Notes under the pieces: generated by a model
The model's input: the letters and a program-made list of their open reading frames with translations, nothing else
Database searches by the model: none
Told to the model about the DNA's origin: nothing
Shown: one piece after another, positions 1 to 33,453 of the stretch
Layout: each line of letters starts with the position of its first letter
How positions within the stretch are numbered: the first letter of the stretch is position 1
Translations under genes and position numbers: made by a program
Assembly: GCF_020103725.1 (NCBI RefSeq)
Contig: NZ_JAHXBG010000016.1
Coordinates: forward strand, 1 to 64,000
DNA: 64,000 nucleotides
Direction of reading: 5' to 3'
Source: Hyalangium gracile
GTDB taxonomy: Bacteria > Myxococcota > Myxococcia > Myxococcales > Myxococcaceae

Positions 1-2
1 AT

Positions 3-143
3 GTTCAGCCCAAGCGCCTGCGCAAGCACCCACGAGGGCCCAAGAAGAAGACGAAGAAGGGTTACGTCTCAGGACGGGCTGCACGCCAGCACGTCTCCAC
101 CGCTCGTGTTCTGGCCTCCGGACGCATCGATCCAACATCTTGA
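3..143 (+). CDS. C-terminal tail of a probable IS transposase (5' end outside window)
   Basis: The third forward frame is open from the left edge to a TGA at 141-143 and encodes about 46 residues that are strongly basic (runs such as PKKKTKKG) and contain HVSTARVL. Basic tails ending in this kind of motif are what I recall at the C termini of IS4-type transposases in myxobacteria, but that is memory and not a search. The reading frame ends exactly where recognisable recombinase sequence begins, which fits an insertion sequence whose right end lies near 145. No terminal inverted repeat can be verified because the left part is outside the window. Confidence 0.35.
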   Translation, partial: VQPKRLRKHPRGPKKKTKKGYVSGRAARQHVSTARVLASGRIDPTS

Positions 144-448
144 AAGGGGTGGCCCTCAAGGCGCACCGCCACCTTCGAGGCCCCTTCGTCTTCTGCGATG
201 GTGGCGGGACGTACCTCAAGAACGATGCCTGCCGGAACGCCCTCCTCCGGGCCTGCAAGCGGGCGGGGCTGCGGCCCGTCGGCTGGCACACCCTGCGGCA
301 CACGTTCGCCAGTCACTTGGTGATGCGCGGGGTACCCCTCAAGGCCATCCAGGAGCTTTTGGGGCACGCCACCATCGAGATGACGATGCGGTACGCCCAC
401 CTGAGCCCGGACGTGAAGAAGGACGCCGTCCGAGCGCTCGAGGGGTAG
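140..448 (+). pseudogene. Tyrosine recombinase/integrase, C-terminal catalytic fragment
   Basis: About 100 residues match the C-terminal half of a phage-type tyrosine recombinase: an HTLRHT box (His-x-x-Arg), then a LLGHATIE box carrying the second His, then the nucleophile Tyr in MRYAHLS. The first catalytic Arg and the whole core-binding domain are missing. The frame is formally open upstream, but that part is out of frame with, and overlaps, the transposase-like tail, and the recombinase resemblance starts only around ALKAHRHLRG. The apparent TTG start at 140 is therefore probably not a real start. Insertion of the element to the left most likely removed the 5' two thirds of the gene. A complete family member is about 300-400 residues. 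Confidence 0.8.
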
Positions 449-4712: not shown

Positions 4713-5813
4713 TCACCCCTTGCGTTTGGGAACAACGAGTCCCCGTGCCAGACGGCGCAGCACACGCCGTTTCTGCCGGCGCTTGTAAAGCTTATGGGCA
4801 TTCTCTCCCTCCTCATTCGCGCGGGCCGTCGCTTCGTCCATGATCTGGAACTCCACGAGCGTGAAGACGATGCGGCTCTTGCGGGGACGCAGATCCTCTT
4901 CGGGAGGAGGGAGGTACGCATCCATCCGCAGAGGCATGTCGACGATGAAGTTGAGAGCTCGATAGGTGCTTCCAGAAAACTGATTGCTGCCGTGCTCCTC
5001 GCGGTCCTCGTAATCGCGATCCAGATGAAGCTGCGCGGCGAATTGTTCGAAGTGTGGATACTCAGCCAGCACCGACTTGAATTGAATCAACGAGTTTTCT
5101 GTCTGCCCTGGCACCACGAAGTTGAATGGGAACAGCCGCTGGCTGAGAAAGTAGAGCGTCGGAAGGATGTCCGCGCGGTTCTTCGTAATGATACGGAACC
5201 GCGTGCGATCATAGACCTGAGCGGCCACCGTCTCCTTCTTCGCTATCAGCTTGGTGATCAGGGAATCCCGCGTCTTGATCGAATGCGCAAACTCGACGAT
5301 GGGCCCGCCCTTGGCCTCGAGCTCCTGGGCCACCGCCAGCACCTTGGCGGTGACCAGCTCGGCCAGATCCGCCTCTGAAACGGGAAGCCGGAAGAGCAAG
5401 TCCCGCCCTTCGATGTGCTGGATGACATGCATCACCTTCAGCACGATGCACGCGATACGGCGGTACTTGGGCAGGCCCTTGGCGCCAGAAGCGAAGAGGA
5501 AAAGGTCGTGAATCTCCGTTGGCGAAGCCACTGCATCCGCGACCCGGTAGTCGAACGTCTTCCGGAGATACTCCACCGCGTCCGCGAGAACCAAGCGCGC
5601 CCACGCCTCGTCGTAGGGCCGAGAGGTATCGAGCTGGCAGAGCCGTAGGAAGTGGTCGACCTCCTCACGGGACTGGAAGTGCATCCGCCGCCAGTCGATG
5701 ACCGACCCACCTCGAAGGATGAGCCGGAGGCGCTCCAGCTCGCGGAGCCCCATCTCCGTCACCGTGCGGATGGGGAGGTCGGGCAGTTGTGGGATGAGGG
5801 AGACGGCCTTCAC
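4713..5813 (-). CDS. Divergent RelA/SpoT-fold protein (TIGR04552-like)
   Basis: This looks like the family I know as TIGR04552, conserved in Myxococcales without assigned function. Numbered from GTG 5813, the C-terminal half carries, in order, the signatures of a RelA/SpoT nucleotidyltransferase fold: SIKTRDSLITKL (178-189; family RxKxxxSxxxKL), DRTRFRI (202-208; family DxxGxRI), TYRALNF (283-289; family YxSxH) and VEFQI (320-324; the catalytic Glu motif ExQIR). The Asp, Tyr and Glu are kept. The first Arg of the first box is Ser and the His after YRxL is Asn. The N-terminal half is helical. The longest frame starts at 5879, inside the upstream gene's terminator, so I prefer GTG 5813. A (p)ppGpp- or related nucleotide role is inference only. 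Confidence 0.7.
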   Translation of the reverse strand: MKAVSLIPQLPDLPIRTVTEMGLRELERLRLILRGGSVIDWRRMHFQSREEVDHFLRLCQLDTSRPYDEAWARLVLADAVEYLRKTFDYRVADAVASPTEIHDLFLFASGAKGLPKYRRIACIVLKVMHVIQHIEGRDLLFRLPVSEADLAELVTAKVLAVAQELEAKGGPIVEFAHSIKTRDSLITKLIAKKETVAAQVYDRTRFRIITKNRADILPTLYFLSQRLFPFNFVVPGQTENSLIQFKSVLAEYPHFEQFAAQLHLDRDYEDREEHGSNQFSGSTYRALNFIVDMPLRMDAYLPPPEEDLRPRKSRIVFTLVEFQIMDEATARANEEGENAHKLYKRRQKRRVLRRLARGLVVPKRKG

Positions 5814-5866
5814 AGCGGCGCTTCTAGCTGAGCCTGCACATGAAGGGAACTCCCCGAAAAGTAGAA

Positions 5867-5893
5867 GGCCCTCCCCCACTTGGGGAAGGGCCT
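5867..5893 (-). terminator. Rho-independent terminator of the MORN-repeat gene
   Basis: On the minus strand GGCCCTTCCCC and GGGGGAGGGCC form a GC-rich hairpin with a short loop, followed by TTCTACTTTT. It starts 26 bp after the stop at 5920. Confidence 0.8.
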
Positions 5894-7797: not shown

Positions 7798-9846
7798 TCA
7801 GAACTTGAACGGAAAATCGATGGGATCTCCCTGCTTCCGGTGCTTCGGGAAAGACCAGCCCTTGATGAGCCCCGAGATGCAGCTCGCCATATAGGTCTTC
7901 TTGAACTCATCCGACTTCACCAGCACGCCCGACGTCTTGCCGGTGGTCTGGATCGTCCAGCGCATCACCAACGTGCCAGAGATGTCCGGATCGCGCTTCT
8001 TCTGCTCGTTCACGCACTTCAGGATGGCCGGCTTGTTGTTCAGCACCACCGCCATGATCTCCGACTGACCGAGCCGCTCGGGAACACTCCCGCCGCCAGG
8101 CTCGGGCGGAACGTAGACGGACGACGACCCCGACGCGCCGCCGCTCGGCTTCTTCTCCGGCTTCTTCGACCCGAAGAGATCATCGAAGTCATCACCCAGG
8201 CCGTCATCCTGCTTCCCGGATTTCGGAGCCGTGGACGCCGAGCTCACGGCCTCGGGCTGCCTCTCGGGCCGGGAGTTGTTCACCCGCGGCGTGCTCGTGC
8301 GATCAGGACGCGAGCCCGGATTGGTCTTCGTCGCGGCTTCGGCCGATGCAGGAGGCGCAGGCGGCGGCGTGGCGGGAGGCGTCGTCGGAGGTGCCGCCGT
8401 CGGCGCAGGCGTCCCAGCCGCAGCCACGGCCTGGCCCGGCGCAGGCGCGGCAGGCGTGCCCGGAGCGGGCGTAGCAGTCGTACCCGGCGCAGGCGTGGTG
8501 GGCGCGGCCGTATTCGCCGCCGCCACGGGCGGCGTCTTCACCTCAGGCGCAGGCGGAGTCGGCTCGGCCGGCTTCGTCGGCTGAGGCGTGGGCTGCGCCT
8601 CCGCCACGAGCACGGGCTGAGGAGGCTGAGGCTGCGGCGAGGAGCGTCCGAACGCGAGGTATCCCCCAACGCCCAGCAGCGCCACTGCCGCTACCGCGAT
8701 GCTCGCGAACATGACCGTCTTGTTGCCGCCACCCTGCGACCCAGGAGCCGCCGGCGGCGGATAACCCGGGTACGCAGGCTGCGGGTAGCCTCCCGCGGAA
8801 GCGTAGGCCGGCTGCCCGTACGCGGGCGCCGGCTGCGCATACGCGGGCGCGGGCGCCACGGGTGCATACGGCATCGGCGCGGGCTGCGGTGCACGCATCG
8901 GCTCGACGGCGGACAGCATCGGCGCCGCACGCGCGGCCGGAGCCATCGCAGGCTCCGGAGGCGGCAGATCGAGCAGCCCCGGCGCCTGCTTCTCCTCGGC
9001 CGCGGGCTTCGGCGGCGGCTTGGACAGCGCCTCGTTCTCCTCCTTCACCAGCGAGGCGAGCACGCTCGCGGCCGACGGCTTCCAGCCCGACGACGTCGGC
9101 TCCGCGCTCAGCGCGGGCGCAGCGGGAATCTCGGGACGCGTGTTCTTCGCCGCGGCTCCCGCGCTGAAGGCGGACTCCACCGGCGCCGACACGGCCGGCG
9201 TGGAGGTCGACACCGGCGTGGGCGCGACGATGACCGGCTTGGCCGGACGCGGCGCGAGCACCGACGCCAGCTCCGTCACCTCGGAGAGCGGAATCCAGTC
9301 ACCGAAGCCCTGGCGCCAGCACAGGCTGTCCGGCCCCACCTCGCCGCGCTCCCAGTGCTCCTTCACCTTCTCGACCGAGAGCGGCCCCACCTGCTTCTCG
9401 TCGATGGCGACGAACCAGTCGTTCGCGGGCGCCGCCGCCTTCGGCTCGTCCGGCTCCGACTCGGCCTCCGCCAGCTTGCGCACGGCGTCAGTCGAGGACT
9501 TGCTCTCCTTCGTCGGCTCCGCGGGGAGCTTCTGCGAGCCCGAGAGGACCTGATCGAACACCGCGCCGATCTCGTCCTCCTCGACGTCCGTGAAGAGGCC
9601 ACCCTCGGGTGGAGTCCCCAGCGAGGCCAGCCCACTCGCGGCGTTGGCGCTCGCGGCTCCATTGCTCGCGGCCGCGGCAGTCGCCTCCGCTGCTGGAGCT
9701 CCCTCATCCTTCGGCGCCGCGGCACCGGATGGGCGAACCACAATGACGTGGCCGCACTTCTTGCAACGAATCTTGACGCCCTTGGCGCCAATCTTGTCGT
9801 CGCTAATCATGTACTGCGCGCGGCAGCTGTCGCAGACGAAGCGCAT
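7798..9846 (-). CDS. gltJ: Gliding motility protein GltJ (AgmX)
   Basis: GltJ is an inner-membrane component of the Agl-Glt focal-adhesion gliding machine. ATG 9846 gives the family start MRFVCDSC. Domains in order: an MJ0042-type zinc ribbon (C5, C8, C28, C31), a GYF_2-like domain (about 143-190, DWFVAIDEKQVGPLS..., GFGDWIP), a long Pro/Ala linker, one membrane helix (about 377-399), a second Ala/Pro/Thr linker, and a TonB-C-like AgmX/PglI C-terminal domain (about 590-682, ILKCVNEQKKRDPDISGTL). In M. xanthus the cytoplasmic Zn/GYF part contacts the MglA-controlled motor and the C-terminal part lies in the periplasm. The same C-terminal fold is found in GltG of this cluster. It is the last gene of the cluster and is followed by a stem-loop. 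Confidence 0.93.
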   Translation of the reverse strand: MRFVCDSCRAQYMISDDKIGAKGVKIRCKKCGHVIVVRPSGAAAPKDEGAPAAEATAAAASNGAASANAASGLASLGTPPEGGLFTDVEEDEIGAVFDQVLSGSQKLPAEPTKESKSSTDAVRKLAEAESEPDEPKAAAPANDWFVAIDEKQVGPLSVEKVKEHWERGEVGPDSLCWRQGFGDWIPLSEVTELASVLAPRPAKPVIVAPTPVSTSTPAVSAPVESAFSAGAAAKNTRPEIPAAPALSAEPTSSGWKPSAASVLASLVKEENEALSKPPPKPAAEEKQAPGLLDLPPPEPAMAPAARAAPMLSAVEPMRAPQPAPMPYAPVAPAPAYAQPAPAYGQPAYASAGGYPQPAYPGYPPPAAPGSQGGGNKTVMFASIAVAAVALLGVGGYLAFGRSSPQPQPPQPVLVAEAQPTPQPTKPAEPTPPAPEVKTPPVAAANTAAPTTPAPGTTATPAPGTPAAPAPGQAVAAAGTPAPTAAPPTTPPATPPPAPPASAEAATKTNPGSRPDRTSTPRVNNSRPERQPEAVSSASTAPKSGKQDDGLGDDFDDLFGSKKPEKKPSGGASGSSSVYVPPEPGGGSVPERLGQSEIMAVVLNNKPAILKCVNEQKKRDPDISGTLVMRWTIQTTGKTSGVLVKSDEFKKTYMASCISGLIKGWSFPKHRKQGDPIDFPFKF

Positions 9847-9982
9847 CGTTCCCCGCAAGTCTCAGAAAAGACGGAAGAAATCCTGCCAAAATCGTAGAGG
9901 TGCTACCCGGGGGGGTCAAGGATGCGTCCCATGACCGCCCGGTCACCCTTCAACGGCTGAACCCTTCATCAGGTTCTAACCG

Positions 9983-12900
9983 CTACTTCCTCACCTGTAC
10001 CTCCACGTGCGTCCCTACAGCGACACGCAGGGCATGCAGGTCCTCGGACGTCGCGAACACCAATAGATCCCGTAGCTTGGTGGTAGGGGGGACCCGGAAC
10101 GTCGAGCCTGTCTCCCCGCTCACCATGCGCTTGACGGGCTCCATCTCCCCCGCGGCGAACAAGCCAGCGCGCGCGGCGGTCAGCTCCACGCCCTCCAGCC
10201 AGGTGCGCACATCCATCGGGGTCGCCGTGGGCAGGTAGGCGCGGGCCACCTTCGCCAGGGCTCCCCGGGCCGGCTCGCTCAGGTTCTTCTCCAGGATCTG
10301 CCGCGCCTCGCCGAAGTGGCGCGGATCAGCCGTGGGACGGATCTGGCCCACCATCATGCTGAGCGCCGCCTGGAGGAGTGCCTCGAGGCGATCCGGCGCC
10401 AGCCGCTGACTGAACGCGAGCTCCGGCCGCGCCAGCGCGAGCGTGCGGCCCAGCAGGTAGTAGACCTCTTTCTGTCCCTGCTCCCCGAAGAACTTGCCGC
10501 CCACGCGCACGCAGGCCGGGTGAGTCTGCAGCAGATCCACGTTGACCATCGGCTCGGGCGCGGGCTCGTTGGAGCGCCGGCTCAACAGCTCGCGCTTCGC
10601 CACGAGGAACGGCGAGTACAGCTCCACTGCCTCCATGCCGAAGAGCCGCGCCACGTAGCGGTAGTGGTGCACGTGGTACTCCTGCGACATCCCCACGTCG
10701 ATGCGGTGCTTCTTCGGGACGATCTGGTACTGCTGGAAGGGCAGCGCGTACAGGTGCCCCACCTGCTCGAACAGGATCCCCAGCAGCTCGGTGAGCGGCG
10801 TGCGCACCTTCTGATGGAACAGGTGCGACTGCCACAGCCGATCCGTCAGCACGCGCTGCGCCACTTCCTTGCGCTTGGCGTAGGGCCCCAGCTTCGTGAG
10901 GATCTCCTTCTCGTCATCCCCCGCGTCGCCCACGAGCCCCGCCACCGCCTGCGCGGCCAGCCACGCCCCGTCGTAGTCCTTGCGCAGCGCCAGCAGGCGC
11001 ACGAGCTGGCCGCACACCTTGCGCGGATCGCTCGTGTTCGGCAGCGCCCGGCGGAGCGCCGCGATGGCCTCCTCCTCCTTGCCCTGCACCTGCCCGGCCA
11101 CCTCGGCGTACGTCTCCTGCACCACCGCGTCGTCCGGCAGGCCCTTGGCCACCACGCCGTAGGCCGCCACCGCGCCCTCCGTGTTCTTCAGCACCTGGAG
11201 GTACAAGTCTCCCAGCGCACGCCACAGCGCCATGCGCGCCACGTGCGTGTCCGGCGTCTTCGGGATGCGTGACAGCATCCGCGCGTAGTTGTCCTCCAGC
11301 GCCTTCCACTGCTCCGCGGCGCCCAGCATGGACTCCAGCGCGCTGAAGGCCTCCACGAAGCGGTGATCCAGGTCCAGGGCCCGGTTGAACGCCTCGGCGG
11401 CTCCGTCGACGTCCTTCGCCTCGTCGCGGCGGATCTCCGCCAGCGCGAACCACACGCGCTTGGCTTTCTGCGGCTCGGCGGCCAGCGTCGGCAGCGAGAG
11501 CATCCGCTGCAACACGTCCGCCGCCTTGTGCCCCTGGCGCGTCTCGCGCAGCAGCACGTACAGCGAGTCCATCACGTCCAGCGCGTCCGGCTGCTCCTTG
11601 AGCGCCCCGCTGAACGCGTCGATCGCCATGTACGGATCCTTCAGCTTGTCCCGCGCGATCTGACCCAGTTCCAGGTAGACGCGGAACTTCGCCTCGCCGT
11701 CCAGCACGTTCACGAGCTGCTGGCGCAGGTCCGCCGACTTCTCGTACTGGCCCACCTTGTCCATCAGCGCCACCAACGCCCGCAGGGAAGGCTCGTGGCC
11801 CGGATCGATGGCGAGCGCCTTCTCGAAGTGGTTCTGCGCGCGATCCGCGTGGCCCAGCGCGGCCAGCACGTCGCCGAGCTGCCAGTAGACCTCCACCACC
11901 TCGAGGTCCGTCAGGCTCTCACGGTGGTGGATGAGGATGGCCTGGAACACCTTGAGCGCGTCCTCGTAGCGCTTCGCCTGCACCAGCAGGTTGCCGAAGC
12001 TCTCCAGGTTGGCCAGGTACCTCGAGTCCAGGCCGTACGACTTCTCGTACGCGTCCAGCGCCTTCTCGCGCTTGCCCAGCTTCTCCGCCACGTAGCCCAG
12101 CCGGTAGAGCTGCCGAGACAGCTCCACCGTCAGCGCGCCGTCCTTCTCCGCGATGGCCCTCTCCGCCATCTTCCGGGCGACGATGTCCAGCATCTTCTCG
12201 CCCAGCGGCCAGTCCTCACGCGCGATGTAGACGTCCGCCAGCGGGCGCGCCGCCTCGAGGCTGTCCGGCACGTGCTTGAGCACCTCCTCGAAGTAGTGCG
12301 TCGCCGTCTGCTGATCCTGCCGCGTCTCCACGTGGTACTTCGCCACGTCCAGCAGCGCGCGCGCCTTGGCCTGCGGATCCTCGGAGCTCTGGGCCTCCTG
12401 GAGCAGCGTCTGCTCGTAGCCGCCCCAGTCCTTCTCCTGCTCCTGGATGCCCTTCAGCGCCCGGATGCTGGGCAGGTAGCCCGGGTCGATCGCCAGCGCC
12501 TGCTGGTAGTTCGACTTCGCGCTCCCCGTGTCCATCAACATGTCTTCGTTGATCTTGCCCATGCGGTGGAACAGCTCCACCGCCTCCTGCGTCTGGCCCG
12601 CCACCTGCGCCTCGCGCTGCAGCATCTCCAGCGCGAAGGGCCAGTTGCCGCTGCGCTCGTAGAGGTTGCCCAGGGCGTGCATCGCCGGCCGGCAGTTCGG
12701 ATCCACCTGCAGCGCGTAGCCGTAGCTGTCCACCGCGCGGTCCACCGCCTTCATCTGCTGGTGGTAGACGGTGCCCATGTCCACGTACAGCTGGGCCTGC
12801 TCCTGCGGCTCCGACGTCAGCGCGAGCTGCCGCTCGTAGGCGACGATCAGGTCCTCCCACCGCTCCTGCGTGCGGCGCAGGCGGATGAGCGTCTTGATCG

Positions 12901-15900
12901 CCTGCATGTTCGTCTGATCGATGGCCAGGATGGCCTCGACGCAGGCGTCCGCGTTCGCCGGGTTCTGGTACTTGTCCTCCCAGATGCCCGCGCTGCGGAA
13001 GAGCACGCGCACCCGCTCGCGGTAGTCCGTGCTCAGCTCCAGCATCCGCTCGTACACGGCCAGCAGCTCCGCCGGCTGGTCGAGCTTGGTGTGCAGCCGC
13101 TCCAGGGACTCCAGCGCCTCGCGGTTCTCCGGATCGAACTCCAGCGCCTGCCGGTAGGCCACCACCGCGGCCTCGTCGTCACCGATGTCCCGCTCGTAGA
13201 CGCCCGCCACCTGCACCTGGATGCGCGCACGCTCCTCCGTCGTGCCCGCCAGGTCTCGCGTCCGCAGCAGCGTCGCGGCCACGTCCTGGTGCGCGTTCTG
13301 ACGCCGATACAGCAGCGTGAGCACGCCCAGCGTCTCCATGTCCGGCTCGAGCTCCAGCGCTCGCAGCAGCGCCGTGGCCGCCTCCTGCGGATCCCCGATG
13401 GCCTCGTCGTAGACGCGGGCGATCTCCTTCAGGATGCCCTTGCGCGCCTCGATGGACGCGGCCGCCTCCAGCTTCTGCTCCAGGGCCACCACGTACTCGC
13501 GGTCCCGACCGCGACGGTGGAACATCGCGGACAGCCCGTCGAGCGCCGTGGCGTTCGTCGGATCGAACTCGAGGATCTTCCGGAACGCCGCCTCGGCCGC
13601 GGGCGCGTCGTCCAGCCGCTCGTCGTGGACGCGGGCCAGCGTGGCGTAGAGCCGCTCGGCCAGCGGGCCCTTCGGCAGCGAGTCCGCCACCTCCTCGTAG
13701 ACCGCCGCCAGCTCCTCGTGGGAGCCCGTCTCGTTCGCCAGCCGCTCCACTTCCTCGCGCAGCGTGTCGTCCGCGGCGTCGATCTGGAGCGCACGGCAGA
13801 GCGCCAGGAACGCCACGTCCTTCTGCCCGAGCCGCTCCTCCTGCACCCGCGCCAGCTCGCGCAGCCAGGAGAGCTTCTCCTCGTCCGTGACGAGGTGAGG
13901 CATGTAGCGGTCCACCACGCCGGCGTAGGCACGCCAGTCGTTGTGGCCACGATACAGCGTGGACACCCGCTCGAAGGCCTTGCGGTTGGCCGGATCCAGC
14001 TCCAGCACCTTCTCCAGCGCTCCCGCGGACAGCTCGGGCTTGGCGCCCGGGCCTTCCCACATGTCCGCCACCGCGAAGTACGTCTCCACCGCCTGCTCTC
14101 GCTCCTCGGCGGCCAGGTGCACCTGCACCTTGAGCTCCAGGGCGCGGACGGCGTCGTTGTACGCGCGCAGCGACACGAACAGCGCGTGGACCCGATCCAG
14201 GTCCGCCACCGAGTGCGGCTCCACCTCGAGCGCCCGGCGAGCGGCGTCCAGCGCCTCCTCGCGGCGGCTCATCTCCGCCAGCACCTCGGCCAGGCGCAGG
14301 CGCAGCGCCTTCACGCCATCCGAGGCCTCCTGCAGCGGCACGAGCCGACGCAGCACGCTCACCAGCTCCTCGCGCTGCCCCGTCTCCTCGTACAGCTCGC
14401 GCAGCGTGTCCAGCACGCCGCGGTGACGCGCGTCACGGTCGAGCGCCGCCTTGAAGTACGGCACCGCCGCCTCGGGCTGCTTCAGCAGCCGGTACACCAC
14501 CCGGCCCAGCCGCTCGTTGAGGCGCACCACCTCGCGCGGATCCAGCGTCTGCGCCAGGCGGTCCGCCAGCAGCGTGCGCAGCTCCTCCGGCCGGCCCGCG
14601 CGCTCCAGCAGCCCTTCCAGCGCGCTGAACGCCTGCTCGTTGCGCGGGTTCTTCGCCAGCAGCTCGCGGTACAGCTCGATGGAGCGGCCCAGGTCCTCCA
14701 GCCCCTCGGCCGACACCTGCGCCATCTTCCCGAGCACTCGCTCCTTCTCCTCTCCGGAGACGCGCTCGAGCTCGTGCTGCAGGATGGCGTACAGCTTGTC
14801 GGACGCTCCCGCCGTCTCGTACAGCCCCTCCAGGAGCCGCGCGGACGCCAGGTGCCCCGGATCGATCGTCAGGATCTGCTCGTAGGCGGACGCCGCGCGA
14901 TCAGGGCTGTCCAGCCGCTCCTGGAAGATCTGTCCCACGCGGAAGAGGAAGCCCACCTTGTCCGCGGGCGCCGTGGCTCCGGCGGCCAGCTGCTCCAGCA
15001 CGCCCGCCAGCTCCGGCCACGCCTCCAGCTCCACGTAGAGCCGATCCAGCGCCAGCAGCGCCTTCTCCTGCACCGAGGCGTGCATGCTGCGCGCGCGCTC
15101 GTAGTAGGTGATGGCGCGCTCCGGCTCGCGCAGGCGCGTCTCCAGCATCTGGCCCAGCTTGAGGCAGACCTCCGCCGCGTCCGCCGCCTCGGCCACGCGC
15201 GGCAGGGACTCCTCGTAGGCCGCCACCAGCTCGTCATACGTGTTGGAGGCGTCGGTCGCGTTCTCCAGCCGGTGACGCAGATCCGCGTCGTTCGGGTCCT
15301 CCTTGAAGGCCCGGAAGAGCGCCAGGAAGGCCAGCTCCGCCTCGCCCTGCGTCTCGCGCAGCGTGGCCAGCTCTCCGAGCAGCGCCTTCTTCTCGAAGGC
15401 ATCCGTGGACACACCGACACGGACCTCGATGAACTGCGCCAGCTTCGTGATGTCGCCACTCGCCCGGAAGGCGCGCAGCAGCGTCTCCACCGCGAGCAGG
15501 TTCTGCGGCTCGCGCGTCACCCACGCCTCCATGCGCGCCACCGCGCCCGCATGGTTGGGCTGCAGCGAGAGCACCTCGCCGAACTGCGCCAGCGCTCCCG
15601 TCTTGTCGAGCAGCTTCGTCTCGCGCACCGTCGCCAGCCGGAACTTCAGCTCCAGCGACTGCTCCGGCGGCATCAGCGCGATGCGCCTGGCCAGCACGTC
15701 GGCCAGCTCCGGCCACCGCTCCTGCTTCTGGCAGAGGCTCTCCATCCGGGCCAGCGCCGCGGCGTCGTCCGGCTTGAGCTCCATCAGCCGCCGGAACGTC
15801 GCCAGCGCGCCCAGGTTGTCCTTGAGCTGATCCTCCTGCAGCACGCCGATCTGGAAGAGCACCGCCGCACGGCGCGTCGGCTCCTCCGCCATCGCCAGCT

Positions 15901-18900
15901 GCCGGCGCAGCACCTCGAGCAGCTCCGAGGGCTTGCCCTCGGACGTCAGCAGGCGCCCGATGCTCTCCAAGGCCTCCTCGTCCGTGGGCCGGACCTCCAT
16001 CACCTTGCGCCACGCGGCGAGCGCCTCGTTGTCCTCGCCCATGCGCGCCTGCAGCCGCGCCAGCGCCCGGTACAGCTCCGCGCGCGCGGAGTCGCCGGCC
16101 TTCGGGGCGATCTGCGCGAGGACCTCGATGAACTCCTCGGCCGTGCCCGCCGGCTCCACCAGCGAGAGGCACAGCTCGAGCGAGCGCGGCTCGTCCGGCA
16201 GATCCTGCAGCGCGCGCACCGCGTACACGAACGCCAGCTCCGCGTTCTCCATGGGGCCCGCGTACGTCTCCGCGATGCGCCGCAGCAGCGCCGCGCGCTC
16301 CTGGGGCACCGGCTCCACGGAGGCTCGCGCCTCCAGCATCTGCACCTGCTTGAGGTGGTCTCCCACCCCGGCGAACACCGGCTCCAGGGCGCTGGCCGCC
16401 GCGCCGCGCAGCGGGCTCTCCGAGCGCGCCATCTCCTCCAGCGCACCCACCGCTCCCGCATGCCCGGCCCGACGCGCGAGCACCGCCTGGTACAGATCCA
16501 GCGCGCCGCGCGGATCATCCAGACGGGTGAACTTCAGGCGGCCCAGGCGCACGCGCAGCTCCGAGGCCTCCTCCACCGCGTTGCGCGCGTCCGCGAGCTG
16601 GATCTCCCGCTCGATGTGCTGCGCCAGCTCCGGCCAGCGCTCCATCTCCGTGAGCACCTTGGCCAGCAGCTTCAGCGCGTTGCCGTTCTCCGGCCGCCGA
16701 TCCAGGACCTCCCGGTAGGCCTGCGCGGCGAGCGCCTTGTCCGACAGCGTCTCCTCCGCCAGGTGGCCCAGCTCGAAGAGCAGGTTGATCTGCGAGCTGG
16801 GGTTGGTGTCCGCCGCCACCTGCCGCCGCATCACCAGCGCCAGATCGCGGTGCGCCCCCGTGCGCCGGTGGATCCGGGCGATCGACTCCAGCACGTCCTT
16901 GTTGTACGGGTCGCGCCGGCTGACCTCCTCCAGCGCCCGGACGGCCAGGTCGTAGCGCTTCATGCGCCCGTCGTAGATGGCCGCCAGCCGCCGCCACAGC
17001 TCACCCGCCAGCGGCTCCTTGGTGCCGCGCTCGAGCTGATCCTCGTAGGCCGCCGCCACCTCCTCGAAGGAGCCCGAGTCGGCCGCCAGCCGCTCCAGCT
17101 CCTCCAGGACGCTCTGCGCCTGCGGGAACTCGTTGAACGCCCGCAGCCGCGCGGCGAACGCCAGCGACGTCTGCCCCAGCGCCTCGCGCAGGATGGCGAT
17201 CTCCTGGATGCGCTCCAGGCGCTGCTCCGGCGGGGCGGAGGACAGCAGCACCTCCAGCACCTCCACCAGCTTCCGGGTGTCGTTGATGCTGCGGTAGACG
17301 GGCTCCAGCAGGCGGGCCGCGTCCAGCCGCTGCCCTTCCTGCGCGAACAGCCGCTCCAGGCCCGCGATGGCCTGCGGATCCCCAGGCACCAGCTCCAGCA
17401 TGCCGCGGTAGCCGATGAGCGCCTCGGCCGTGCTCCCCGCCAGCTCCAGCAGCTGCGCCCGGCGCAGCATGAAGCCACGGCGGGACTCGGCGTCCGCCGC
17501 CAGCTCCGCCAGCTGGGCCAGCACGTCCGCCTGCTCCTGGACGCGGTGCCCCTTGGCGAACAGCTTGTCCAGCGCCAGCAGCCCCTCGGGCCCCTTCTTG
17601 ATGGCCAGCGCCGAGCGGTAGGCCTCGATGGCCTTCGCGTCCTCGCCAGCGCTGGCGAAGGCATCACCCGCCTTCAGCAGCAGGCCCCGACGGGCCTCCG
17701 GATCGGTCGAGAGCTGCGCCTGCTGCGCGTACACCTCGGAGAGGTTCTTGGCGTTCTGTCCCTTCTCGTACAGCCGGGACAGCGCCTCGAGCGCCTGGCG
17801 ATCCTGCGGCGCCTCCTGCAGCAGGTTCTTCCAGAGGCGCGTGGCCTCCTCGGGCTGGTTGAGCTGCTCGCGCAGCTCCGCCGTCCTGCGCAGCAGCGCC
17901 ATCGCGGCCGCATCGCCCGAGGGCAGATCCGTGGCCGCGTCCTCGTAGATCTCCGCCAGCGTCTCGTGAGAGCCCGTCTCGCGCGCCAGCCGCTCCAGGT
18001 CCGGCTGCAGCGCCTCGCGGTCCAGCCCCGCCGCGAAGGCCTTCACCGCCGCCATGAACGCCAGCGACGGCTGCTGCATCTCCTGCTCGTAGATGAGGCG
18101 GATCTCCGCCGCGAGCTGCGCCTTCTCCACCGTGAGCGCGGCTTCCATGCGCGTCTCACGCAGCGCCACGCGGCGGGCATGGTCACCCAGCTGCTTGAGC
18201 ACTGGATCGAGCGTCTCCAGCGCCGCCCGGCTCGTCGGCAGGGCCGCCTTCACCCACTCCTCCAGCGCGGCGCGCGCGCCGGGGTGGCCCGGATCCTCGG
18301 ACAGGATGCGCTCGTAGAGCTTGAGCGCGGCGTTGGGGTTGTTCAGCTCGGTGCGCAGCAGCTCCGCCAGGCGGAAGGAGACCTCACGCCCCTGCGGGCT
18401 CTGGCCCTCCTGGCTGCGCCGCAGCGACAGCGCCCAGGCCAGCTCCTGGGAGCGCCCCAGCTCCGTGTAGAGGCGATCCAGCGAGGCGGCGGCCTCGCGC
18501 TGAAGCTGATCCTTCTCGGCGATCGCGCGCCACGCGGCGGCCGCGCGCTCCTTGTTCTCCAGCTTGCTCTCGTGCAGCAGCGCGGCCTCGCGCAGGTAGG
18601 CCACCTGCTCCGCCGTCTCCGTCGACACGGAGGCCAGCTTCTCGAGCACCTCGGCCACCTCGGCCCACTGCTCGCCCGCGCGGTGGAGCCGCTGCAGCGC
18701 CTTGAGGCAGTCGACGTTGGTGGGCTCCAGCGCCAGCAGCGCGTGCAGCGCCTTGATCGCGCCCGCCTTGTCGTCGAGCTTCTTCTCCTGCACGTCCGCC
18801 AGCTCGCGCAGGATCGCCGCGCGCGCCGGGCCGACATTCCCCTCCTCCGTCAGCTCCTGGAGGATCTCCGCGAAGCTGTCCAGCGAGTCCGCGTCCTCGG

Positions 18901-21900
18901 CCGCCTGGCGCGCCGTGGCCCGCAGCCCCGTGTCGCCCGGCGTCAGGCGCATGGCCCGTGCCAGCGAGGCGAAGGCCAGCTCCGGCTGCCGCAGGTGCGT
19001 CAGGTGCACGTGCGCGGCCTGGCGCAGCGCCTGCGCACGACCCGCGTCATCCTTCGCCACCTCGGCCAGCACGTCCAGCGCGGCCACCAGCTTGCGGTGG
19101 TCCTTGGTGAGCTCGTACGCCGGCAGCAGGGCCCGCGCCGCCTCCTCGCGCGCGGGTCCGGAGGCGAGCATCCCCTCCAGCGCGGTGAGCGCGTCCGGAT
19201 CCGACGGGCGCTGACGCAGGATGTCCGCGTAGCTGCGCACCGCCTCGGCCTGGTCGCCTCCCGGCGCGCCCTGGAGCAGCTGCGCACGCTTGAGCTTCAG
19301 CCGCGCCACCTTCTCGGTGTCTCCGGCCGTCTCCGCCAGCTCCACCATGCGCGCCAGCGTCTCGTTCAGCTCGCGCGTGCGGCCCGCCTTCTCGTACAGC
19401 TCGGCGAGCCTCGGCAGGAACTTGCCCTCCTCGGCGCCGTTCGAGATCGCCGTCTGCAGGGCCTCCGCGGCCTCCGCCGGGCGCCCCGTCTGCGCGTTGA
19501 GCTCCACCAGCTGGAGCAGCAGCTTCAGCCGCTCCTGGCCCTTGGCCGTCTGGATGCGCTTGCGGAGCATGCTCTCCGCGTCCGCCACGCGCCCCGCCCG
19601 CCAGAGCATCCGCAGCAGCCGCTGGAGCAGCTCGGGCGACTCCGGAGCACGCCCCAGCGCCGCCTGCAGCGCGTCGATGGCGTCCGGCACCGCGCCCACC
19701 TCTTCGGCCAGCGCCGCCGAGTCCGACAGCAGCTGCACGGCGACCGCCAGCTCCTCCGTCTCCGTCGCCAGCCGGCGCAGCACTCGCACCAGCTCCGCCT
19801 GCGCGGACAGGTCGTGCGCCAGGCGCAGCGCCTCGGTGCGGCTCAGCTCGTCCTTGGGGTTCTCGCGCAGCGCGCGGACCCGGCAGTCGAAGGCCGCCCG
19901 GCTGTCGGCCAGCTGCTTCTCGTGGATCGTCGCCAGCAGCGTGAACAGGCGCTGCCGCGCCGCCAGGTCGGTCGTGGCGTCCAGCTGCTGCTGGAGCGCG
20001 GCCACCTGCCGCTGGTGATCGCCCGTGCGGCCGTAGTGGTTGGCGAGCGCCTCGGCGATCTCGCCCGTCCGGATGTTGGCCGACGCCAGTCGCTCCAGGC
20101 CACCCACCACCAGGCCCGTGGACACGTTCTCCGCCAGCAGCTTCAGGAAGATCTGCGCGGCATCCTGCGGCCGGTTCAGCCGCTCCGCGTAGAGCTTCGC
20201 CTGCCGCGCCGTCCAGTCGCTGCGCTCCACCTGCGTCTCGGCGAGCTTCGACAGCCGGCCCGCCAGCGTCGCGGCCTCCTCGAACTTCGACAGCGACACG
20301 CACAGCGCCTGCAGGCGCTGCAGCGGCCCGGGCTCATCCGGCGCCATCGAGACGAGCTGCCGCACCAGCGGCTCGATCTCCTCCGGCGGAGCGCTCGTGT
20401 TCTCCTTGCGGCTGATCTCGCCCTCCAGCTTCACCCGCGGATCATCCGCGAGCGCCGCCGCCGCCTTGAGCGACTTCACGGCCTCCTCGGCCACGGAGTC
20501 CCCCGGCGCGCGCGCCAGCACCTCGCGCCACGCCGCCTCGGCGCCCACGGGATCTCCCAGCGGGCCCTGGAGCAGCTGCGCCAGCTGCCGCCAGATGGCC
20601 AGCGCCACCTGCTCCGGCGCCACCAGCACCGCGCGCTTGAGCGCCATGGCCAGCTCGTGCTGCGCCTGCGCCTTCTCCGCGTGCTCCACCACCGTGCCCA
20701 GCAGCAGCGGCCGCGCCGGATCCAGCACCAGCGCCCGCGCCAGCACGCCGAAGGCCCGCTTCGCGTCCCCGCTCTCCTCGAACGTGAGCGCCAGGGCCTC
20801 GCAGAACGCGATGCGCTCGGCCTTCGAGCGCGGCGCCAGCATGGCCAGATCCAGCAGGGGCTCCAGCGCGTCGAACTGCTCGTCCTCCGCCAGCAGCCGC
20901 GCCAGGTGGAAGGCCGCCAGCGCGTTGGCCGGATCGCTCTTGAGCGCCGCCTCCAGGTGCACGCGCGCCGCCGACCCGTCCTTCAAGTGCTCCAGGCACA
21001 GCTCCGCCATCCGCATCCGCAGCGCGGCCTGCGCCTGGCGGTCCTTCACCGTGGCCACGTGCCGCTCGAGCACCGCGACGGCATCGGCCGCCCGCCCCTG
21101 CTCGATCAGCGTCTCCGCCGCCAGGTTCACCGCGTCCGCCCGAGAGGGGTCCGCCGCCGCCGCCTTCTCGATGGCCGCCAGCGCGCCCGCCGGATCGTTC
21201 AGCCGCGTCAGGCGCCCGGTGCCCACGCGCAGCCACAGGTCCACCTGCGCCGTGCGATCCTTGGCCTCGGTGGCCATGGCCTCGAACTGGGCGATCGCCG
21301 GGGCGAAGTCCCCGCTGCGCTCGGCCAGCCGCTCGATGAGGTTGAGCGCCTCGGGCATGCCCGGCCACAGCAGGAAGCACCGATCCAGCGCCTCCTTCAC
21401 CTTGGCCGCCGCGGTCGGCTCGTACCAGGCGAACAGCTTCGCCACCAGCAGCGACAGCCGCGCCGCGCTCTTCCGGTCCCGCTCCTCCAGCGACATGCTG
21501 CGCAGCATCCGGACGCGGTCGCGCCACGTCTGCTCGAAGCGCTGCAGCGCCTTCTGCGCCTTCTCCACCCGCGCGTTCTGCGCATCCAGCGTGCGCGCCA
21601 CATCGAGCACCTTCTGCGCCAGCGCGTGCTCGGTGGGATCCTCCACCAGCCGCTCGGCCACGGCCGCGTACTCCTCGGCCATGCCCTCGGGGCCCATCGC
21701 CTCGCGCTCGCGCTCCAGCGACTCGAAGACGGGCTGGAAGCGATCCTCGGCCAGCAGCAGCTGACGCAGCCTGCGGAACGTCGCCCGATCCGGCTGGGCG
21801 CGCGCGGCCTGCTGCAGGCAGAACACCGCTCGATCCCTGCGGAAGAGCTTGGTCTCGTAGAGGTCCGCCGCCTTCAGGAAGAAGGCCGCGCTCTCCTTGC

Positions 21901-22255
21901 TGGTGGTGGCGCCGGCCAGCTTCTCCAGCGTGTCGGCCAGCGCGGAGGCGTCCTGCTTGGCCTCGTAGAGCGCCTTCATCCCGCGCAGCACGGGGAGCGG
22001 CTCGGGCGCCAGCAGCAGCGCGCGCCGCAGCAGCTCCTCGGCGCGGTTGGGGTTGCGGAGTCGTTCGAGGGCGAGATCCGCGGCACGGCCGAGCAGCCGC
22101 GCGGCCTCGGGGGCAGGGACCTCACGTCCCCGGCTCTCGTAGAGCCGGATGAGGTCCTCGACACGACCTGCCTTCTCCAAAGTGGCCTCGGCTTCGAGGA
22201 AGGACCGGTCGTCGGTCACACGCACAGAGGGGCGCGGAGAGGAGGATTGTTCCAT
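9983..22255 (-). CDS. gltI: Giant TPR protein GltI (AgmK)
   Basis: At 4090 residues this single frame fills 12.3 kb. It is built almost entirely of degenerate 34-residue TPR-type helical hairpins (for example [38 protein letters not shown]), often in half-units with an EDLIxLYE or AYEEV register. The last roughly 370 residues lack TPRs (segment with [19 protein letters not shown] and [11 protein letters not shown]), a separate globular domain. There is no signal peptide or membrane helix, so I infer a cytoplasmic location. Position and size match AgmK/GltI of the M. xanthus G2 cluster, which is needed for A-motility. No stop or frameshift interrupts the frame. It lies 136 bp before gltJ, and two small hairpins precede it. 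Confidence 0.93.
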
Positions 22256-22371: not shown

Positions 22372-24336
22372 CTATTGACTTTCCTGCTCCCCAGGCGAGG
22401 AGGCAGGAGGGGCGGAATCGGATGGGGACTCGGTACCGGACTCGGACTCGGACGCAGAGTCCTTGTGGGCCCCGCCAGCAGGAGCTGGAGGCGTCTCAGG
22501 GAGGGCCTTGGCCCGCTCCAAGCCCGCAGCATCATTGAGCCGCGTGTAGAGGTCCACGGCCTTGGCCCGCTGCTGGAGCTCCTCGGCGAGCTGAGCCGCG
22601 CGCGCCAGGTTGCCCAGCTGCTCGTGGAGCGGGAGGGCCTTCTCCTTGCGCCCGGCCTGCTCCCAGGCCTCCGCCGCCTCGGCGGTCTGCCCCAGCAGCT
22701 CGAGCCACCGGGCACGCCCGGCCGGCTTCTTCTCCTCCTCGGCGCGGGCCAGCTCGCGCTGAGCGAGCGCCTTGGCCTCCTCCTCGAGCTTGAGCCGCTG
22801 CATGAAGTGGAACGCCTTGGGCGGAGGCAGCGGGCTGAGCACCTCCACGGCCTCGCGATTCTGGCCCGCGGCCACCAGGAGCGTCGCCGCCCCCAGCCGA
22901 TCGCCACGCTCCACCAGAGACTTCACCTCGAGGCCCCGGACGCGGTTGGCGCTGGCCATGTCCCGCGCGCGCTCGTAGGACTTGCGAGCCTGGGTCAGCT
23001 TGTTGGCCCGCTCGTACGCGAGCGCTGCCTGGTCGAACTGCCTGGCCCGCTCGTACAGCCGCGCCACGTTCTCGAAGTCACCCTTGCCGACGTAGTGCTC
23101 CATGAGGAGCTCGTACGCCCCGGCCTTCTCCAGCGTGGGGCCAATCTGGTCCGCGGGCAGGCCCGAGACGAGGCGCCGGGCCGCGTCCAGGTCCTTGCCC
23201 TCGACCGCGCAGCGCAGCGCGCTCTTCACGTCCCCGCCCGCCTCGAAGAGCCGGATGGCCTCGGTGAAGGAGTTGTTGCGCTCGTGCAGCCGCCCCGCGT
23301 CCCGGGTGCGGCCCATGGCCTCGAGCTGCTTCGCCTGCTCGGACCAGTCGCCGGTCAGCTCCGGCATCGGCTTGCGCTCGGGGCGCTCGCCACGCTCCGG
23401 ACGCTCACGGCGCTCGCCACGCTCGGGGCGCTCACCCCGCTCCGGACGCTCACGGCGCTCGCCACGCTCCGGACGGTCGCCACGCTCGCGACGCTCCCCC
23501 CGCTCGCGGCGCTCACCGCGCTCAGGACGATCGCCACGCTCGGGGCGCTCACGGCGCTCGGCCTCCGCGCGCACGGGCTCCTCCTGCTCGGGGCCCGGCT
23601 GACGGCCGCTGGCGGCGAAGGCCACCTCGGCTCGCTCGCGGTCCCCCGCGGCGCGCCAGGCCTGGCCCACCAGGTACATCACATCCGTATAGGCGACGTA
23701 CTTCTCGCGCACCGGGTCCGCGGCGGGAGCGGCCGGAGCCGCACCCTCGGCCGGAGCAGCGCTCTCGGCAGGGGCCGCACCCTCGGCCGGAGCAGCGCCC
23801 TCGGCGGGAGCAGCACCCTCCGCGGGGGCCGCAGCCTCGGCAGGCGCCGCCTCGGGCGCTGGAGCCGCCGCCTCACCCGCGGGCGCACCCTCGGCCGGAG
23901 CAGCGGGCGCCGCCTCGGGCGCGGGCGGCTTCGGCTGGCGCTGCACGCGCAGCAGCGTGGTGATGAGCCGGCCGCGCGTGTTGAGGTCCAGGTCCTCCAG
24001 CGACTTGAGCCGCATGGGACGCAGCGCGCGGACGATGGCCTCGAGAGGCCCCTTCTGCGACGCGAAGTCGTTCTTGGAGAGCGCCTTCTCGAGGACGCTC
24101 AGCTCGACGATGACGCGGTGCCCCGGCCCGCTGGCCCGCTCTTCATCCCGGCCACGGCCCCCCCGGCCACGGCCCGGACCATCCCCCCGGCCACGGCCGC
24201 CATCGCGGCCTCCGAAGCCACCCTCACGACCGCCAAAGCCACCCGGACCCTCGCGGCGGGGACCCTGGCCAGGTCCTCCGTCCCGGCCGCGCCCACCACC
24301 ACCGCGCGGCCCACCGCTTCCATTCTCCTGAGGCAC
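22372..24336 (-). CDS. RGG/Ala-Pro/Arg-Glu repeat protein with TPR-like C-terminal half
   Basis: GTG 24336 follows GGGAGA at a good distance. The 654 residues split into an RGG/FGG-rich N terminus (8-63), a short helical domain (about 72-132), an Ala-Pro-Glu tract (136-206, repeated PAEGA units), a helical segment (210-240), a 64-residue tract of RERPERGE units (258-321), and a helical-repeat half of TPR/clathrin-like hairpins (about 327-620) ending in an acidic Ser-rich tail. It sits where M. xanthus has the unnamed ORFs between gltH and gltI (MXAN_4865/4864 as I recall). There is no signal peptide, so it is presumably cytoplasmic. Almost half of the chain is predicted to be disordered. Its function is not established. 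Confidence 0.8.
   Translation of the reverse strand: MPQENGSGGPRGGGGRGRDGGPGQGPRREGPGGFGGREGGFGGRDGGRGRGDGPGRGRGGRGRDEERASGPGHRVIVELSVLEKALSKNDFASQKGPLEAIVRALRPMRLKSLEDLDLNTRGRLITTLLRVQRQPKPPAPEAAPAAPAEGAPAGEAAAPAPEAAPAEAAAPAEGAAPAEGAAPAEGAAPAESAAPAEGAAPAAPAADPVREKYVAYTDVMYLVGQAWRAAGDRERAEVAFAASGRQPGPEQEEPVRAEAERRERPERGDRPERGERRERGERRERGDRPERGERRERPERGERPERGERRERPERGERPERKPMPELTGDWSEQAKQLEAMGRTRDAGRLHERNNSFTEAIRLFEAGGDVKSALRCAVEGKDLDAARRLVSGLPADQIGPTLEKAGAYELLMEHYVGKGDFENVARLYERARQFDQAALAYERANKLTQARKSYERARDMASANRVRGLEVKSLVERGDRLGAATLLVAAGQNREAVEVLSPLPPPKAFHFMQRLKLEEEAKALAQRELARAEEEKKPAGRARWLELLGQTAEAAEAWEQAGRKEKALPLHEQLGNLARAAQLAEELQQRAKAVDLYTRLNDAAGLERAKALPETPPAPAGGAHKDSASESESGTESPSDSAPPASSPGEQESQ
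23374..23565 (-). repeat. In-frame repeat tract coding for RERPERGE units
   Basis: Short tandem units of about 12-24 bp built on CGCTCGGGGCGCTCACGG variants (plus-strand reading) code for residues 258-321 of the RGG-type protein: alternating RERPERGE, RRERGE and RGDRPE. The unit is a multiple of three, so copy number can change without frameshift. Confidence 0.8.
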
Positions 24337-24349
24337 GTGTGTCTCCCGA

Positions 24350-24997
24350 CTAGAACGCGTACTTGAGGTTCGGCATGAGCGCGAACCCGACTGTTCCCGA
24401 GGAGATCAGATAGCTGCCTGTCACCTCGAGGCCCACCGAGAAGTGGCGCAACCGCGTGTAGTACTCCACTCCCGGCCCGGCGAACACCAGAATGTCGGAG
24501 TCCGGCAACAGCAGCTTCGGAGAGAACATCGCGAAGCCGGCTCCCGCTCGCGCGTAGATGAAGGTCCGCTTGACCTCCTGATTGTCGGCGAAGCCCACCA
24601 GATGCGCGCGCATCGTCACGCCGGGCACGATGCTGGAGAAGTCACCGGAAGCCGCGCCGCCCGAGTTCCCCACGTAGTCCGAGCCCGCGCGGTTGGCGGT
24701 GCCCAGGACGAACACGCCCAGCGACAGGCGCTCGCCGATGTCGATGCCCACCTCCACGTGGGCCGCCTGTCCCGAGGAGAACGGTCGCGGCCCCGTGTCC
24801 GCCGGAGCGTTGACGAGGAACGAGGGACCGCCCTGCACCAGGAAGTACAGGCCACGTTCGATCTCGTTGAACGTCTCGGCCGGTCGGTCCTTCACCGGAT
24901 TGTTGGCGGCGGGGGACTGCTGGGCACGCGCGAGCGTCGGCACGACGAGCACGCTGAACAGAGCAAGGGACGCAAGAGCTTTCATGCTGGTCATCAC
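24350..24997 (-). CDS. gltH: Outer-membrane beta-barrel gliding protein GltH
   Basis: The 215-residue product has a Sec signal peptide (MKALASLALFSVLVVPTLARA; the frame opens MMTS and M5 is an alternative start). The rest is beta-strand pattern with alternating residues and ends in a Phe-terminated strand (MPNLKYAF), as expected for a BamA-inserted barrel. In the M. xanthus G2 cluster the gene after gltG is GltH, predicted to form an outer-membrane pore or barrel with GltA and GltB. Order, size and fold agree. The stop is 13 bp before the next start. A strong terminator hairpin lies between gltG and this gene, so it may begin its own transcription unit. Confidence 0.85.
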   Translation of the reverse strand: MMTSMKALASLALFSVLVVPTLARAQQSPAANNPVKDRPAETFNEIERGLYFLVQGGPSFLVNAPADTGPRPFSSGQAAHVEVGIDIGERLSLGVFVLGTANRAGSDYVGNSGGAASGDFSSIVPGVTMRAHLVGFADNQEVKRTFIYARAGAGFAMFSPKLLLPDSDILVFAGPGVEYYTRLRHFSVGLEVTGSYLISSGTVGFALMPNLKYAF

Positions 24998-27126: not shown

Positions 27127-27390
27127 CTACAGCTCGCCCACCGACTGCATCACCTTGTCCTGGAAGTCCTCACGGATACGGATGAGGTTGGAGTGGCGCA
27201 CCTTCTTGCGCGCCTCCACGTACTCGCCATCCGGCTTGGTGAGGTCGCCCTCGATGGTGTCGTCCTCGAAGTCGATGGTCTGCGTCTTGTTGTAGCGCAC
27301 GTTGCCCTCGCCCCCGCCTCCCTTCGCCTCGTCCTGGGCAAAGGCCGGGGCCATCGTCAGCATCACGCACAGCGCCAAGAGCTTCCGCAT
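27127..27390 (-). CDS. gltF: Small secreted gliding protein GltF
   Basis: ATG 27390 has GGAGACGG upstream and opens a Sec signal peptide (MRKLLALCVMLTMAPAFA). The longer frame from 27432 would disrupt it. The mature protein of about 69 residues has a Gly-rich start, an acidic middle (IDFEDDTIEGDLTKPDG) and a basic amphipathic C-terminal helix (EARKKVRHSNLIRIREDF). Size, signal and place between gltE and gltG match GltF of the M. xanthus G2 cluster, a small periplasmic factor. The acidic middle plus helix resembles a segment of AgmX/PglI-type regulators, so it may be a partner or an evolutionary offshoot of GltG. It is separated from gltE by 126 bp with a hairpin. Confidence 0.82.
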   Translation of the reverse strand: MRKLLALCVMLTMAPAFAQDEAKGGGGEGNVRYNKTQTIDFEDDTIEGDLTKPDGEYVEARKKVRHSNLIRIREDFQDKVMQSVGEL

Positions 27391-27471
27391 CACCGTCTCC
27401 TCGCGGGCTTGAGACGCCCGCTCGTCCACCACTTCCAGTAAATCAGGCTTCCTAGATTCGCATCATTCAGA

Positions 27472-32531: not shown

Positions 32532-32811
32532 GTCTCTCCTATCCCGGAACGTGCGGTCCTGGACGCTTGCCTGCCGGGCAAGTAGCCGGGACTCTTTAGG
32601 AATTTCCATTCGAGGGGCGCCACTATGCGCAGAGCCGGCAAGGGCGGTCAACTGAACCTGCTCGGCCGCCGGGGTGGGGGAAAGCTGGCCGGAAAACTTC
32701 CAGAACCGCTGTGTGGAATGCGTTGGGTTGGCTGCCATGTCGGCCTGGGAGGTTATGGGTGGGGTAGCGCTCGTCTGCCTGGCTGCTCTACCCTGCGATG
32801 CGAACCCGATC

Positions 32812-33453
32812 ATGAGTCTCTTGCCCGAAGGCGCCAGTTTCGAGGAGCTGGTGCAGGACTACTTTCTCGCCGTGCGCGGAGCGGGGCTGATGCTCTCCGC
32901 ATTGGATACGGAGCTTCTGACGTCCTGGGCGCGAGAGGGCGTTCCCTTCGAGGTGGTGGCGCGCGGCATCCAGCGCTCGGCGGAGAAGGCGCTGTGGGAC
33001 GCGCGGCCCGGAGAGCCGGTGCTGCGCAGCCTGCGCGCGTGCCAGCGGCAGGTGGCCTCCGAGATCAAGAAGTACCGGGAGCGCAGCGCGGGTGAGACGG
33101 AGAGTCCTCGGCGACGCCGGGCGCTGACCTGGGAGGAGACCCGACATGCCCGGCTGCGGACGTCCCTGGAGCGGCTGGCCGAGCGTCGCCCGGAGCTGAT
33201 GCCCCGGGTAGGGCGGCTGCTGGAGGAGGTGCTCGCCTCGCCGCCCGCTGACCCGGCGCAGCTGGATGCCCAGGAGGGGTTCGTCTTCCTGGCGCTCCTG
33301 CGCGCCCTGCCCCTCTCCGAGCGGAGCCAGCTGTGGCGCGAGGCCCGCGGCGCGACGGAGGGCCAGGGCATGTCCGCGCGATCACGCCGGGTGGGACGGC
33401 GCTTCCGGCTGCTGGCGCTCGTGCGCCGCTCGCTCGAGATGAAAGAGGCCTGA
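32812..33453 (+). CDS. Conserved myxobacterial hypothetical protein
   Basis: I do not recognise a named family. ATG 32812 is preferred because the sequence from MSLLPEGASFEELVQ is a coherent helical domain, whereas the 46 residues from the longer frame are not. The RBS is weak. The 213-residue product is all-helical and very basic in its second half (ESPRRRRALTW, RSRRVGRRFRLL), with no signal, membrane helix or Cys motif. It sits directly upstream of the DnaC-like ATPase on the same strand (54 bp gap), so the two may form an operon. Such helical basic proteins next to helicase loaders suggest a nucleic-acid-related role, but that is inference from context. Confidence 0.7.
   Translation: MSLLPEGASFEELVQDYFLAVRGAGLMLSALDTELLTSWAREGVPFEVVARGIQRSAEKALWDARPGEPVLRSLRACQRQVASEIKKYRERSAGETESPRRRRALTWEETRHARLRTSLERLAERRPELMPRVGRLLEEVLASPPADPAQLDAQEGFVFLALLRALPLSERSQLWREARGATEGQGMSARSRRVGRRFRLLALVRRSLEMKEA

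Follow-up and report, generated by a model that had tools for sequence, protein, structure and literature searches.

The stretch of DNA analysed here (64,000 nucleotides of a Hyalangium gracile contig, NZ_JAHXBG010000016.1, hereafter the window) encodes at 4713-5813, on the minus strand, a protein of unknown function that is a far relative of the enzymes that make the bacterial stress signal ppGpp. The protein, found in most of the myxobacterial genomes examined, keeps most of the active site of these enzymes but has a rewired substrate pocket, and its gene often lies near gliding-motility genes, hinting at an uncharacterised signalling activity. The favoured reading is a working pyrophosphotransferase with a non-standard acceptor, associated with the Glt gliding module, although activity and acceptor are unproven and this reading is held to be about as likely as not.

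The ORF starts with GTG and encodes 366 residues. It is a member of the NCBIfam family TIGR04552 (414 bits, cut-off 125), and TIGR04562 also matches (352 bits, cut-off 140). In Pfam it matches RelA_SpoT (PF04607) only below the gathering score (21.9 bits, cut-off 27; E 2.2e-4), and no HD, TGS or ACT domain was found. Of 30 diverse TIGR04552 members scanned one by one, 21 match RelA_SpoT at E<=1, the best at 7.3e-6. An hhalign comparison of these 30 with 18 canonical synthetase domains from Myxococcota (long Rel and small synthetases) gives E 1.1e-5 and a probability of 82% over 160 columns, from residue 135 to 346. As a control, with plainer settings covering 96 columns, the real score was 44.1, against 25.5 for the reversed alignment and at most 23.2 in 200 column shuffles. 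Searches of PDB sequences alone were weak, with YwaC as the best relevant hit of the profile (E 0.15) and none for the single protein.

An AlphaFold2 prediction based on 55 sequences gave pLDDT 86.8 and pTM 0.84, with residues 191-200 and 271-280 being weak (58 and 62). All 36 Foldseek matches in the PDB with E<=0.001 are RelA/SpoT-type synthetases, led by S. aureus RelP (E 4.5e-6), although the superpositions are loose (TM on the query 0.23-0.31, rmsd 8.7 A and more for the 36 best, with one at 8.6). VIA-align gives a best Z of 13.3 (RelSeq and E. coli RelA chains; 125 residues and 3.2 A for RelSeq) and 12.2 for YwaC, with VIA superpositions at 3.0-5.2 A over 119-150 residues. DNA polymerase lambda, which also has a nucleotidyltransferase fold, reaches 8.6 and CapRel 8.1, so the match to RSH and small synthetases stands out, whereas that to CapRel does not. 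In a viral structure library the best match was a phage RelA/SpoT protein at E 2.3e-3, with none at E<=0.001. The matches cover residues about 145-350, and the predicted RelA/SpoT-type synthetase domain is placed at residues 147-345 (4779-5375, minus strand). It is preceded by a helical N-terminal domain, residues 22-146 (5376-5750, minus strand), in which R30, G35, S37, K126, H129 and H133 are kept in 27-30 of the 30 diverse members. Predicted alone (pLDDT 83.3), this N-terminal part had no convincing match (Foldseek best E 3.0, best VIA Z 4.7), so that no fold, including that of an HD-type hydrolase, is assigned and none is excluded.

A sequence-only reading had proposed four boxes in the order and spacing of the (p)ppGpp synthetase fold, with the catalytic Asp and Glu and the base-stacking Tyr kept and an Arg of the first box and the His after YRxL replaced, and this is confirmed. 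The boxes are IKTRDSLITKL (residues 179-189; 5247-5279), DRTRFRI (202-208; 5190-5210), TYRALNF (283-289) and VEFQI (320-324; 4842-4856), all on the minus strand. The box-1 Arg position is Ser, Gly or Asn (Cys in 2 of 30), and the His after YRxL is Asn in 24 of the 30 diverse and 50 of 55 nearer members (His in 1 of 30 and 5 of 55). Not noticed in that reading were the loss of the Arg of the EIQIRT motif (Met325; mostly Val, Ala or Met), a nearly invariant extra Arg205, and about 36 residues inserted before the Tyr box.

Carrying the alignment with canonical synthetases to FaRel2 by motif spacing gives K66=K180, S70=S184, K74=K188, D90=D202, R95=R207, E145=E321 and Q147=Q323, with Y128=Y284 on the acceptor side. 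By the roles described for FaRel2 (PMC11782079), K180, S184 and K188 would be donor phosphate residues, D202 the catalytic Asp, R207 an adenine-clamp Arg and Y284 the acceptor-stacking Tyr. In the 55 nearer members K180, K188, D202, R205, E321 and Q323 are invariant, R207 is kept in 54, S184 in 53 and Y284 in 51. In the 30 diverse members the counts are K180 28, S184 27, K188 30, D202 28 (Glu in the other 2), R205 28, R207 25, Y284 28, E321 29 (Asp in 1) and Q323 28. Of the 19 departures at these nine positions in the diverse set, 13 belong to two loci, L063 (6700-7743) and L064 (6030-7073), from two genomes of one family. These two members have lost K180, S184, D202, R205, R207 and Q323 and are possible natural pseudoenzymes, so decay is visible where it occurs. 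H340-x-x-Y343-K344-x-R346-Q347 (4773-4796, minus strand) is the counterpart of the canonical H...YK end of the domain.

Interestingly, the canonical strand-1 Arg (R64 of FaRel2) is lost while Arg205 appears three residues after the catalytic Asp. After dropping repeated sequences and rows with a gap in a scored column, 126 of 128 distinct TIGR04552 sequences show this pair, the two others being the decayed ones, whereas 49 of 49 canonical loci (47 distinct places, two appearing twice, all from Myxococcota) have Arg on strand 1 and Ala or Gly at the third residue after the Asp. The simplest reading is that an arginine reaches the donor pocket from strand 2 instead of strand 1, which suggests a second way to build the ATP clamp in this superfamily. 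However, the strand-1 Arg has key contacts in FaRel2 (PMC11782079) and its loss could abolish ATP binding, and a bulky Arg205 where canonical enzymes have Gly or Ala could fill the adenine pocket. Together with the loss of the His and of the IRT Arg, this leaves room for a pseudo-synthetase that binds a nucleotide (ATP, (p)ppGpp or another) without catalysis and works as a sensor or scaffold. This is the main rival, but it is considered doubtful, because both catalytic acids and the two donor-phosphate lysines are invariant in the 55 nearer members, more than binding alone would need, and visible decay was seen in only two of the members examined. The sequence-only reading had offered either an alternative nucleotide or a regulatory pseudo-synthetase; its interpretation is supported by the predicted fold and the conserved Asp/Glu pair, and conservation favours an active enzyme without deciding between the two.

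A second divergent PF04607 family of some myxobacteria (A5; loci L203, L205, L206 and L213-L220, 8 distinct genes, three of which appear twice) has the same Arg at the third place after the Asp in 11 of 11 loci and none in the strand-1 column. Gaps were kept in this case, the strand-1 column being a gap in 6 of the 11, and in L206 an Arg stands one position off, so there the absence of Arg rests on the alignment. A5 is sporadic (8 of 150 genomes at E 1e-67 or better) and lies above the Pfam cut-off in the three members scanned. An hhalign comparison of A5 with TIGR04552 covers only 24 columns (E 0.035), and a tree puts them apart, each on one side of a branch with support 100/99. As the forks that separate them are not strongly supported (89/86) and branches are long, two origins are suggested but not shown. 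Another divergent family, at L207 (977-1435) and L209 (955-1428), which gave no row in the Arg comparison, has FEIQVQP in place of EIQIRT and a Trp where the acceptor Tyr is expected; L207 is just above the Pfam cut-off (28 bits, cut-off 27).

The acceptor side is also rebuilt. A family signature F-N-x-x-x-P-x-Q-x-x-N (residues 230-240; 5094-5126, minus strand) is followed by the insertion, residues 241-276 (4986-5093, minus strand), whose length varies in the family, and then by N-x-F-S-G-x-x-Y-R-x-L-N-F (residues 277-289; 4947-4985, minus strand), in which N288 replaces the canonical His. An ordinary (p)ppGpp synthetase with drifted motifs, serving as a minor second source of alarmone, would agree with the fold, the acids and the acceptor Tyr. 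Nevertheless, this is unlikely, since the genome has a canonical long Rel and a canonical small synthetase, so that basic ppGpp metabolism does not need the protein, and the acceptor loop and clamp differ throughout the clade, which has a very long stem (3.57 changes per column). An RNA-directed pyrophosphotransferase acting on tRNA or another RNA 3' end, chemically like toxSAS but housekeeping, is also thought improbable. The modified acceptor loop and the extra N-terminal domain speak for it, as in FaRel2 an N-terminal part anchors tRNA (PMC11782079), but with no PADLOC match at E<=0.01 and no plasmid or phage match the gene does not look like a typical toxin-antitoxin gene.

Compared with the small alarmone synthetases RelP/YwaC and RelQ/YjbM, TIGR04552 shares the synthetase fold, the K, S, K, D, R, Y, E and Q positions and the final YK, but lacks the strand-1 Arg, the His after YxSL and the IRT Arg, and has gained Arg205, the insertion and its own N-terminal domain. 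The long RSH proteins (Rel, RelA, SpoT) give the best VIA Z, but the window protein has only 366 residues and shows the same residue changes. For the toxSAS proteins CapRel and FaRel2, donor-site residues map one to one by motif spacing except for the strand-1 Arg, and the acceptor is altered; FaRel2 keeps both R64 and a Gly at the third place after the Asp (G93) (PMC11782079).

TIGR04552 was found in 133 of 156 Myxococcota genomes at E<=0.001 (130 over the cut-off), mostly as one copy, and in 0 of 14 control genomes. It is chromosomal, and no plasmid, phage, PADLOC (E<=0.01) or PHROGs match was found, so that a toxin-antitoxin or defence role was rejected as the main reading. One assembly holds three TIGR04552 genes (L072, 6263-7267; L073, 6281-7393; L082, 5846-6955), one of them 41% identical to that of the window, but it is listed at 7% contamination and they may not all be from one organism.

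The window holds the G1 gliding cluster of Luciano et al. 2011 (PMC3169522), on the minus strand. It comprises a gltD-like gene (28965-32813, 1282 aa; named by position and size, with only YbgF/TPR-type matches), gltE (27517-28965; NF033758, 760 bits, cut-off 225), a cglF/gltF-like small protein (27127-27432), gltG (25097-27052; NF033760, 1074 bits, cut-off 650), cglE at the position of gltH (24350-24997; NF033755, 171 bits, cut-off 70), an unassigned ORF, a gltI (agmK)-like giant TPR protein (9983-22255, 4090 aa) and gltJ (agmX) (7798-9858; NF033761, 825 bits, cut-off 450). The cglF-like gene is named by position, and as a query it finds an ORF at locus L071 (phmmer E 3.1e-11) that matches CglF; the gltI-like gene is also named by position, supported by TPR-type models and by length and order as in M. 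xanthus. The unassigned ORF (22372-24336, minus strand) is repetitive, encodes 654 aa without an NCBIfam match at E<=0.01, and lies in the place of the doubtful agmV genes of M. xanthus (PMC3169522). Beyond gltJ follow a lipoprotein-like ORF (by eye), a MORN protein and TIGR04552.

In order to see how general this arrangement is, we scored the 100 of 160 loci that have at least 2.5 kb upstream, the other 60 being short-flank (L001, L004-L048) or below this limit. A GltJ-like gene (two or more of its zinc ribbon, GYF and C-terminal parts) lies upstream on the same strand in 64 of 100 loci, or 61 of 92 without eight repeated contigs. By family (labelled f1, f2 and so on), 11 of the 22 that carry a clear TIGR04552 gene have a glt/cgl-like gene there in at least one member: f1, f3, f6, f8, f9, f13, f16, f22 and f23 with GltJ or a GltJ-like protein, f2 with GltG and CglE-like genes, and f4 with a CglE-like gene. 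Several score below the NCBIfam equivalog cut-offs (for example 261 of 450 bits for L050 and 68.1 of 70 for the f4 CglE), so they are like GltJ or CglE but not proven orthologues. In f23 (L054), gltG, cglF, gltE and gltD relatives lie just downstream, convergent, and in L070 (3127-6974) the canonical rel gene, a CglE-like gene and TIGR04552 stand in a row on one strand. In L062, L059, L051, L050 and L054 the nearest plausible start codon lies from 4 bases before to 22 bases after the end of the GltJ-like stop, as in an operon. This suggests that the tie is to the cytosolic GltJ part, not to the motor.

In contrast, ten families show no clear glt gene near TIGR04552 (f5, f7, f12, f14, f15, f18, f24, f26, f28 and f29), the other glt genes having been sought in 27 loci of 16 kb or less each; f27 is a fragment, and f6 and f8 also hold unlinked members (L075, L076). 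The gene ffh, downstream and convergent, is also conserved in f1, f3, f6 and f9, so part of the synteny is general gene order. Co-occurrence is uninformative, as GltG is present in 149 of 156 genomes and 3 of the 7 without it have TIGR04552. In the window, a terminator-like hairpin (5866-5893, minus strand) stands between the MORN gene and TIGR04552. This hairpin is only moderately supported: the scan finds 3 overlapping sites with 2.7 expected in shuffles, so the count is no evidence, and the fold has z -2.23 (7 of 200 shuffles as good), but inverted arms can be seen by eye in 8 of 8 aligned relatives, with a T-rich tail clear only in some.

Taken together, TIGR04552 is best explained as a deep, separate clade of the RelA/SpoT synthetase fold, fused to its own N-terminal helical domain. 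Activity of some kind, counting the nucleotide, RNA and plain ppGpp readings together, is considered likely. The protein most likely binds ATP-Mg in the usual donor site (K180, S184, K188, D202, R207, E321, Q323), with R205 inferred to stand in for the lost arginine, and moves pyrophosphate to a nucleotide held by Tyr284, the acceptor probably not being plain GDP or GTP. It probably works with, or answers to, the Glt module, perhaps through the cytosolic zinc-ribbon/GYF part of GltJ, a partnership that is inferred. It is possible, though unlikely, that a dedicated enzyme tied to the gliding machinery makes a pyrophosphorylated nucleotide other than (p)ppGpp, or pyrophosphorylates an RNA, and that the product tunes adhesion-complex assembly through this part of GltJ, as a local alarmone for motility. 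No paper linking alarmone-type chemistry to gliding, or describing the function of the family, was found in literature searches that did not reach most subscription papers. TIGR04552 occurs in one paper, as a table entry for a Bdellovibrio mutation (PMC9888234), and TIGR04562 in none. The M. xanthus orthologue is inferred from synteny to lie just after MXAN_4862, and of the searched locus tags MXAN_4857 to 4861 only MXAN_4860 appears, in one outer-membrane-vesicle paper.

A TAG[A/G]A stretch about 13 bases before the GTG start (5811-5830, minus strand) is kept in the 8 aligned relatives and no ribosome-binding site is apparent, perhaps indicating a leaderless promoter, although a promoter scan found nothing. 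At the left edge of the window (2-448, plus strand) lies the C-terminal part of what looks, by eye, like a tyrosine recombinase.
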